From NCBI GenBank assembly GCA_030645455.1, contig JAUSNA010000068.1:1-39229 (forward strand): DNA of 39,229 nt, read 5' to 3'. The notes below the pieces were generated by a model. That model did no database searches, was not told where the DNA came from, and saw only the letters and a program-made list of their open reading frames with translations. The stretch comes from Candidatus Levyibacteriota bacterium. Lineage in GTDB: Bacteria; Patescibacteriota; Microgenomatia; Levybacterales; GWA1-39-11. Shown in pieces: positions 16,068 to 17,753 of the stretch. Each line of letters begins with the position of its first letter. Position 1 is the stretch's first letter. The position numbers and the translations under genes were made by a program.

Positions 16068-16164
16068 CAAAACAAAAAGGAATTGCACACGTAGCTATTA
16101 GAGGGGTTTTATGGGTTACGATTTTAGACTTGCTCCGCCTAGTGGAATCATTCAAAACCCATTA

Positions 16165-16173
16165 TGCTACAAT
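16165..16173 (+). promoter_or_regulatory. Extended -10 of the 72-aa gene
   Basis: TGcTACAAT ends 7 nt before the ATG at 16181, again without any Shine-Dalgarno site. Confidence 0.5.
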
Positions 16174-16180
16174 TTGAACA

Positions 16181-16399
16181 ATGAATTTGAGAAATAACAG
16201 TTATACAATTTTTATTGGCACAAAAAATTTCACAGAAAAATATTACAAAGATAAAAAGGGATGGCTAAAGATTTCAGCAACGGGCAGGGAATTTAGAATG
16301 ACAGCCGAACAAGTTCTCAATCACCTATTGCCTGCTATAGCAGGTGTCAAGCCAAACGTAATTCTAAAAGTAGAACAGCACGAACCGGTTAAAGAGTAA
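16181..16399 (+). CDS. Hypothetical protein, 72 aa
   Basis: Not recognised. A small soluble protein with a beta-rich first half (YTIFIGTKNF, KKGWLKISATGREFRM) and a helical stretch (AEQVLNHLLPAIAG) before a final strand (VILKVEQHE). It has a well-placed extended -10, which supports it being real. It ends 9 nt before the first structured repeat (16408) and lies on the strand opposite to the HEPN gene and tRNA-Asn, so it is not their operon partner. Confidence 0.55.
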   Translation: MNLRNNSYTIFIGTKNFTEKYYKDKKGWLKISATGREFRMTAEQVLNHLLPAIAGVKPNVILKVEQHEPVKE

Positions 16400-16407
16400 T
16401 ATCTTTG

Positions 16408-16487
16408 GCTCCGCGACTAGCCCCACAAGGGGATCCGGTCTCTCCGCCAGTCGGCGGATCAACATGAGATTTGGCAGCAGCCAAATC
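16408..16487 (-). repeat. 80-bp structured repeat, distal copy, carrying tRNA-Asn 3' end
   Basis: Matches the copy at 17557-17636 at 74 of 80 positions with no gaps. On the minus strand it folds into three successive hairpins: TTTGGC/GCCAAA, TCCGCC/GGCGGA and CCCC/GGGG, each with a 4-nt loop. It then ends in CTAGTCGCGGAGC, identical to the last part of the tRNA-Asn gene and its next base. It lies downstream of the HEPN gene. A shorter echo, GCGGAGCCA, occurs near 16540. Confidence 0.85.
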
Positions 16488-16572
16488 TATTCTTGAGAAG
16501 CCACAAAAAAAGCCGAGTAAAAACTTGACTTTTCTTATGGCTCCGCTCACCTTAGGCTAATATAACCATTGA

Positions 16573-16666
16573 TTTCGAAACAATTACTGCCTCATTTCAG
16601 AACGTGCTATATATTGGGGAACTAAGAGCACGATGGAAAGAAATTAAACTATTGAATTCTCGCTAG
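16573..16666 (+). pseudogene. Possible C-terminal gene remnant, about 33 codons
   Basis: A plus-strand frame open from just after a TAG near 16558 to a TAG at 16664-16666 encodes a protein-like stretch (ITASFQNVLYIGELRARW, then KEIKLLNSR) with no start codon or promoter of its own. It may be the tail of a gene lost during rearrangement at the tRNA-Asn locus. It overlaps the end of the HEPN gene by 18 bp. The family is not recognised and chance cannot be excluded. Confidence 0.25.
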
Positions 16667-17503
16667 ATTTTTTTGAAGTTTCTCAATTAATAAAATAACA
16701 CGCTGGATTGTATTCTCGCATTCCTCTCTAGTCACTCTTCTTTTTGTGGGGTGTCCAGTGTCGTTTCTGTCTATCCTCACCGTATTTAATTCATGAAATA
16801 ATCTTTCATCTATAAAATTAGCATTCATCAATATTCCGATTTTTGCCTCATATTTTGTTTTGGTGATTAGAATCTTCTTTATTTTTTTGCTTTTTATTAA
16901 TTTTCTTAATCCGGCGTCTAAAACATCTTCTAAAGTTCTTCCAATCACAAACAAAGATGTATTTAAATGTCCGAAGGAGTAAATATCGATTGCTTCCTCA
17001 ACACCATCCTTGTATTCCTTATTAAGTTTATCAAGCTGGTTAAATTTTTCTACTTCATTAAGATAGTTCGCAAGCTCAAATATTGATTTTCTGGTTGCTG
17101 TTATTATTTTGTCGATTTTTAATTTAAAATTCTCATTACTCAATTTTTGTGATTTATTCTCTTCTAATTTCTCGTTAAACCTTTCATCAGCAACTTGCTT
17201 TATAGCGAGATAATCTATTGGTAAGATTTCTTTTTTGTGCTTTAAAAGATGTAATAATTTATTTGCTGCCTTTATTTGCTTATTTGTTCCATCCACCTCT
17301 ATTTTTATATGTGCTAGTAGATGTTTATAATTTTCTTTAAAACGTGGGCCATTATCTTTAAGAGAAAAACTTTCATAAAGATTGTGCATCATTAAGGAGG
17401 ACTCTATATGAGGATGTAGTCTATCAACTCTTCTGTTGATATTTTCGATGAAAATACCAATCTTAACAGATATTGCAAATCCTATACCTGAATTTTCACT
17501 CAT
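16649..17503 (-). CDS. HEPN-domain protein, candidate RNase
   Basis: A 284-aa Lys-rich helical protein. The first 170 residues are coiled-coil-like helices. The last 100 form a DUF4145/HEPN-like domain with SLFVIGRTLEDVLDAGLRKLI, then FHELNTVRIDRNDTGHP. RNDTGH (about 246-251) fits the R-x4-6-H catalytic motif of HEPN ribonucleases, with the usual polar residue after Arg. It lies co-oriented downstream of tRNA-Asn, between two 80-bp structured repeats that contain the tRNA's 3' end. No MNT antitoxin is adjacent. The promoter is weak (TATAAC near 17515-17520), so it could be read from the tRNA side. A toxin, defence or RNA-processing role is inference. Confidence 0.6.
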   Translation of the reverse strand: MSENSGIGFAISVKIGIFIENINRRVDRLHPHIESSLMMHNLYESFSLKDNGPRFKENYKHLLAHIKIEVDGTNKQIKAANKLLHLLKHKKEILPIDYLAIKQVADERFNEKLEENKSQKLSNENFKLKIDKIITATRKSIFELANYLNEVEKFNQLDKLNKEYKDGVEEAIDIYSFGHLNTSLFVIGRTLEDVLDAGLRKLIKSKKIKKILITKTKYEAKIGILMNANFIDERLFHELNTVRIDRNDTGHPTKRRVTREECENTIQRVILLIEKLQKNLARIQ

Positions 17504-17556
17504 ATAGTTCAGGCAGTTATAATAAGAACGATTTACTTATATTAAATTTGAATCTT

Positions 17557-17636
17557 GCTCCGCGACTAGTCCCACAAGGGGATCTGGTCTCTCCGCCATC
17601 CGGCGGATCGACATGAGATTTGGCAGCAGCCAAACC
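17557..17636 (-). repeat. 80-bp structured repeat, tRNA-proximal copy
   Basis: Second copy of the element at 16408-16487. The six differences fall in hairpin loops (two), linkers (two), the outer edge of the first hairpin (one) and one base of the third hairpin, which can still pair by shifting one base. The GCTCCGCGACTAG end on the plus strand equals the tRNA-Asn 3' border (17681-17693). It lies 45 nt beyond the tRNA 3' end and 54 nt upstream of the HEPN start. Confidence 0.85.
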
Positions 17637-17648
17637 CTAACATGTGAG

Positions 17649-17681
17649 TACAAAACATCACCCAATGAGTGACTTTTTGTG
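17649..17681 (-). other. Imperfect hairpin just after tRNA-Asn
   Basis: On the minus strand ACAAAA, then GTCAC, pair with GTGA and TTTTGT around the loop TCATTGG. It may end the tRNA transcript or guide 3' trimming; no U-run follows. Confidence 0.35.
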
Positions 17682-17753
17682 CTCCGCGACTAGGATTTGA
17701 ACCTAGAACCTTGAAGTTAACAGCTTCCTGCTCTACCATTGAGCTATCGCGGA
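17682..17753 (-). tRNA. tRNA-Asn (anticodon GTT)
   Basis: A 72-nt cloverleaf on the minus strand: acceptor TCCGCGA/TCGCGGA, D-stem GCTC/GAGC, anticodon loop CTGTTAA with anticodon GTT, T-arm CTAGG-TTCAAAT-CCTAG and discriminator G, as expected for tRNA-Asn. The anticodon stem has one G-A mismatch at its top. CCA is not encoded, so it must be added by the CCA enzyme. Its final bases recur in both 80-bp repeats downstream. Confidence 0.93.

Follow-up and report, generated by a model that had tools for sequence, protein, structure and literature searches.

Units closed by copies of the tRNA 3' end stand in tandem behind tRNA-Asn in a Candidatus Levyibacteriota genome and have counterparts at other tRNA genes

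The nearest known case of small units stacked behind a tRNA gene is the tyrT/tyrV region of E. coli with its rtT units (RF00391). Behind tyrV lie 178-bp units. Each closes with 19 nt that exactly repeat the 3' end of tRNA-Tyr, and contains GGAAGGAT-GAGAAG and, later, ATCCTTCC, the start of the copy. These units belong to one tRNA operon and carry no cargo beyond the tiny tpr. A second precedent is SegB of phages T4 and T6, a GIY-YIG homing nuclease located among tRNA genes (PMC2988022), which cuts inside tRNA genes with the site preference RAWTSGAAC and is significantly co-localised with tRNAs in phages (PMC13096335). Genomic islands at tRNA 3' ends (tycheposons and phage-type islands) have a direct repeat of the tRNA 3' end around the inserted DNA. 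Integron cassettes provide an analogy, as arrays of small units in which the anchor and the end of every unit have a structured site in common, and in AbiF-type systems a HEPN protein is tied to a structured RNA.

The window analysed here is a stretch of 39,229 nucleotides from a Candidatus Levyibacteriota bacterium (GCA_030645455.1, contig JAUSNA010000068.1). The source genome is designated G000, and other genomes are given by their G numbers. Along the minus strand, tRNA-Asn is followed by 80-bp repeat 1, a 284-aa HEPN-type gene and 80-bp repeat 2, in that order. This co-oriented arrangement had been proposed in a sequence-only reading and was confirmed by ARAGORN, repeat alignment and Pfam. 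The features of the locus are as follows.

17681-17753, minus strand: tRNA-Asn(GTT), the anchor, found by ARAGORN and by the Rfam tRNA model (68.6 bits); its last 13 nt are 17681-17693.
17657-17673, minus strand: terminator-like hairpin directly 3' of tRNA-Asn; chance alone also predicts one such site.
17557-17680, minus strand: unit 1, 124 bp, gene-less, made of a spacer, the hairpin-rich 80-bp repeat and a tRNA 3'-end copy.
17557-17569, minus strand: first exact copy of the tRNA-Asn 3' end (CTAGTCGCGGAGC).
16408-17556, minus strand: unit 2, 1149 bp, made of the HEPN-type gene and repeat 2, with the tRNA 3'-end copy last.
16649-17503, minus strand: HEPN-type gene (Pfam DUF4145, 284 aa), an orphan that looks like a passenger.
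16408-16420, minus strand: second exact copy of the tRNA-Asn 3' end.
16131-16407, minus strand: possible unit 3, 277 bp, tentative; contains a 72-aa ORF.
16131-16149, minus strand: foreign-type Asn 3' end GATTCCACTAGGCGGAGCA, 19 nt, tentative third copy.

The 13 nt of the tRNA 3' border were said to close each repeat as well, and CTAGTCGCGGAGC was indeed exact at three sites of the window, each time on the minus strand (17681, 17557 and 16408). Tolerating up to 2 mismatches raised the count to 4, where 0.19 would be expected; none of 100 shuffles reached that number. The repeats (17557-17634 and 16408-16485) aligned without gaps over 78 nt at 94% identity. Compared with shuffled sequences, folding was stronger for copy 2 (z -3.2) and only mild for copy 1 (z -1.8). 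The 19-nt GATTCCACTAGGCGGAGCA looks like a 3' end of Asn type that differs in sequence type from the window tRNA, and it may close a third unit; 5 of 7 positions pair with the 5' acceptor strand of the window tRNA-Asn. The 72-aa ORF of this tentative unit (16181-16399, plus strand) is oriented opposite to it and had no Pfam match.

Scattering of the repeat without a link to tRNAs, which the sequence-only reading had named as evidence against itself, was not seen, and the outcome favoured the link. The exact 80-bp sequence was restricted to the Asn locus, and its relatives sit 3' of tRNA-Asn in G008 and G002; among 147 relatives and in two public collections, G008 alone clearly shared the repeat. 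When the three Asn repeats were aligned, clear conservation was seen in the last third only.

In common with tyrT/tyrV, the window has tandem units behind a tRNA, each closed by an exact 3'-end copy. The differences lie in sequence and in range: the E. coli units scored 133-138 bits with the RtT model while the window stretch gave no RtT match at E <= 1, the window repeats lack the complement-GAGAAG pattern, and units were found here at many tRNAs in many genomes, with cargo genes. Since neither the rtT pattern nor a model match was present, the window array is not called a member of the RtT family and, by its sequence, is probably a variant set apart from it. In E. coli rtT and in four tRNA-linked units (G000 Leu, Ser and Lys; G193 Lys), GAGAAG directly follows a stretch of 5-8 nt that is complementary to the beginning of the copy. 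The occurrence of this pattern in G000 and G193 agrees with the idea that the repeats are functional RNAs of the tyrT/rtT type which are produced along with the tRNA, then processed, and include the copied end in their structure. We consider this very improbable for the window, where the pattern and the model match are absent and a terminator-like hairpin lies between tRNA-Asn and the repeat. Across the units, complement-plus-GAGAA showed no enrichment (17, with 18 in two control sets) and stem pairing with the copy fell short of overall significance (P = 0.06). On these figures both were rejected, the former as a motif general to the units and the latter, pairing between the unit interior and the copied end, as a general rule.

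Copied 3' ends were then sought throughout the source genome, using the last 16 nt of each tRNA plus 4 nt as the query and 300 bp on each side of 40 distinct tRNA genes. A copy of the tRNA's own 3' end was found 67-125 bp downstream of 6 of the 40 (Leu-TAG, Cys, Tyr, Asn, Ser-TGA and Val-GAC). Placement was one-directional: no upstream or inverted copy of the own 3' end was found within 300 bp on either side of the 40 genes. The real copies scored 13-17, and about 1,490 mismatched pairings of tRNA ends with downstream sequences never scored above 11. The arrangement is thus neither Asn-specific nor HEPN-specific.

The same layout recurred in related genomes, most of which are fragmented draft assemblies that may be incomplete and whose tRNAs were sampled in part. 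A 3'-end copy matching the tRNA in amino-acid type was present within 250 bp downstream of 22 of 208 tRNAs in nine genomes, with no inverted copy. A 6-kb scan gave 28 downstream matches, 21 of them within 400 bp, against 4 across three control sets. Own-type copies were found in G008 at Asn, Glu, Lys, Phe and Gly, and among 26 tRNAs of G036, which belongs to the same genus, there were none.

Foreign-type copies, which match the adjacent tRNA in amino-acid type and differ from it in sequence, were frequent in G002, G004 and others. The copy behind tRNA-Cys of G002 equals the Cys end of G000 over 18 nt, and the adjacent G002 tRNA-Cys differs. Foreign-type copies pair with the 5' acceptor strand of the adjacent tRNA at 4-6 of 7 positions, against 7 of 7 for the tRNA's own 3' end; they are therefore not simply a displaced native end, unless the tRNA changed later. 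The site itself could be compared across genomes, for the order dnaG-rpoD-tRNA-Asn is retained in several of them, with a unit present in G000, G008 and G002. In G008 it is a 155-bp unit ending in ATCCCCTTGTGGAACTAGTCGCGGAGC, followed by an SRPBCC-type gene, and the unit in G002, about 67 bp long, carries both a TCCGCC/GGCGGA hairpin and an Asn end of foreign type. G018, G027 and G031, which have the same tRNA-Asn end, showed no copy in the available sequence 3' of the tRNA.

On this evidence the window locus is very probably an array formed by insertion or duplication at the tRNA end. The sequence-only reading had proposed tandem site-specific insertion at this end of the tRNA, in which every insertion leaves behind a single att-like copy. 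Its anatomy holds, and insertion fits because the same layout stands behind other tRNAs, the copies match in amino-acid type, foreign-type copies occur, relatives have sites without a copy and some units bear genes; att recombination by a tyrosine recombinase would be one candidate mechanism. About one third of the gene-less units resemble the body of the same tRNA, which speaks against insertion for these.

If recombination of this kind were at work, small circular cassettes would enter at the 3' end of the tRNA, the copy would be the att site, and the tyrosine recombinase responsible would act in trans or have been lost since. It can be likened to the tRNA-targeting islands and, functionally, to integron cassettes. 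The constant right border at the tRNA end, the 13-19 nt of identity, the tandem units and the three tyrosine recombinases of G000 all agree with it, as does the distal position of the foreign-type ends, which a crossover at the extreme 3' end predicts. We nevertheless regard it as fairly unlikely, since no tyrosine recombinase was found in any unit or on the window's contig, where the absence of a recombinase from the window had already been noted and the tyrosine type alone was searched. G008 has at least five units and one recombinase, of Xer size, and G036 has two recombinases and own-type copies at 0 of 26 tRNAs. No single attachment-like sequence was common to the unit interiors. The known tRNA-end islands share the direct repeat of the tRNA 3' end around the inserted DNA, but the units described here span about 50 bp to 1.3 kb and hold no recombinase gene of the tyrosine type. 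In contrast to integron cassettes, the anchor is a tRNA gene, and no attC core was seen at the unit ends by inspection.

The second way in which a copied end could arise is tandem duplication of the tRNA gene, followed by decay and by invasion of palindromic (REP-like) repeats, so that the 3' copy would be the remnant of a second tRNA gene. Nine of 29 gene-less units resembled the body of the same tRNA at p <= 0.03, most clearly at tRNA-Asp of G005, and some gene-less units are thus truncated second tRNA copies. A REP-like motif adjoins three tRNA ends in G000, as this explanation would have it, and is also found elsewhere in that genome. Beyond the 3' end, however, the Asn, Cys, Lys, Glu and Gly units showed no detectable tRNA remnant, and duplication accounts poorly for foreign-type copies and for units of 0.4-1.3 kb that carry unrelated genes. 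As an account of the window array, duplication is unlikely.

The gene in unit 2 (16649-17503, minus strand) matched Pfam DUF4145, a HEPN-type domain, with 27 bits at a cut-off of 23.1, and RNDTGH in the 284-aa protein can be read as the HEPN R-x4-H motif. No relatives of the protein were found in 374 class genomes, phages, plasmids or viral contigs, nor in NCBIfam, PADLOC or the PDB. A single-sequence fold was uninformative (pLDDT 34). Because it has no relatives in the class genomes, phages, plasmids and viral contigs, the gene looks like a passenger of unit 2. Other units carry other cargo. Behind tRNA-Glu of G000 the copied end lies 1.27 kb downstream, and the interval holds an orphan ORF of 188 aa followed by a GIY-YIG gene; behind tRNA-Lys of G001 an exact 19-nt Lys end follows after 719 bp and encloses an orphan 159-aa ORF. 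These cargo genes are mutually unrelated, as one would expect of passengers, and a dedicated HEPN-RNA pair becomes less likely. It had been suggested that the repeats are RNAs mimicking a tRNA end that serve as antidote or substrate of the HEPN protein, an AbiF-like toxin pair. The flanking of the HEPN-type gene by two structured repeats is what such a pair would look like, but the tie between RNA and HEPN was not found: the same type of unit stands behind many tRNAs that have no HEPN gene, Rfam returned no match for the repeats and the protein had no relatives in any collection searched. This reading was abandoned as extremely improbable.

GIY-YIG genes were frequent beside tRNAs. Small GIY-YIG genes lay within 300 bp of a tRNA in 11 of 29 and 22 of 43 cases class-wide (33 of 72 in total), against about 4% expected (binomial P ~1e-26, for cases that are phylogenetically non-independent). 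The tRNAs neighbouring GIY-YIG genes in the second set were on the same strand in 32 of 33 cases. Tracts of this kind include G000:C44, C40, C72 and C43 and G008:C27. The order tRNA-Arg/GIY-YIG/tRNA-Lys was found in several genomes; as tRNA/GIY-YIG/tRNA orders recur in this way, the genes may be old residents and not independent events. Several GIY-YIG genes were enclosed. The order tRNA, GIY-YIG gene, copied tRNA end was found at G194 Asn, G088 Asn, G111 Gln and G002 Pro (17 nt exact), with the GIY-YIG gene alone between the tRNA and the copied end. In the literature searched, nothing relevant was found on tRNA-linked GIY-YIG nucleases or mobile units of these bacteria.

The likeness to SegB lies in small free-standing GIY-YIG genes placed among tRNA genes. 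SegB is a phage enzyme, whereas the present genes, known from their sequences, are in cellular bacteria and some are in units enclosed by copied tRNA ends. As for a SegB-like homing element, a GIY-YIG gene within the unit is absent in the window and present in G194, G088, G111, G002 and the Glu array of G000. GTTCSAWTY, the reverse complement of the SegB preference, would correspond to the tRNA T-loop, and many copied segments start in the T-loop or just 3' of it.

For the responsible enzyme we infer a tRNA-cutting GIY-YIG homing nuclease as the first choice and a tyrosine recombinase as the second. Each unit of the array has a hairpin-rich stretch and then a copy of the tRNA 3' end, from the T-stem/acceptor strand to the nucleotide after the discriminator. 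Such a copy would leave the tRNA intact and give the next unit an identical end to join. GIY-YIG nucleases acting like SegB would break the T-loop or 3' end of the tRNA gene, and the break would be repaired from a donor copy with the copied tRNA end as the second homology arm, which would yield the observed anatomy. Gene-less and HEPN units would be carried along with the process. That GIY-YIG nucleases drive the unit array is conceivable, and we stop short of calling it probable: the window array has no GIY-YIG gene, none was found on its contig, and most GIY-YIG genes just 3' of a tRNA have no copy behind them (a clear copy in 4 of 30, inverted copies in none, wrong-type ends in 0.7%). The full proposal, that units were stacked behind tRNA-Asn by repair of GIY-YIG breaks with the HEPN gene as passenger, is given not quite an even chance.

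In a wider and more doubtful form, the units would be a previously undescribed class of tiny mobile cassettes that use tRNA gene ends as landing pads across this class of small-genome bacteria, with tRNA-cutting GIY-YIG nucleases as the active members and the gene-less or cargo (HEPN) units as passengers holding a portable tRNA end as homology arm. The one-locus oddity of E. coli tyrT would then give way to a testable general process, in which small units accumulate downstream of tRNAs in bacteria with small genomes and for which a candidate enzyme can be named. If true, streamlined bacteria would have a cheap means of single-gene uptake that leaves the tRNA unharmed, and the small GIY-YIG genes so numerous in these genomes would gain a possible role.

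Some palindromic elements near tRNA ends were considered separately. Y1/REP transposition as the driver was rejected, as a search for Y1 transposases (IS200/IS605, REP/RAYT) found none in G000, G008 or G036 and one in G001. In G004:C8 a REP-like unit lies between two Lys-type tRNA ends, beside a phage BRO/KilA-type antirepressor-like gene, with no tRNA in the examined stretch. In G000, tRNA-Arg-GCG, Ser-CGA and Ser-GCT are each followed by a related double hairpin (AACGT..ACGTT GCTG AAACGT..ACGTTT CGC), which by its sequence would be a second family of tRNA-linked palindromic elements. At two of these three tRNAs a GIY-YIG gene is next after the double hairpin.
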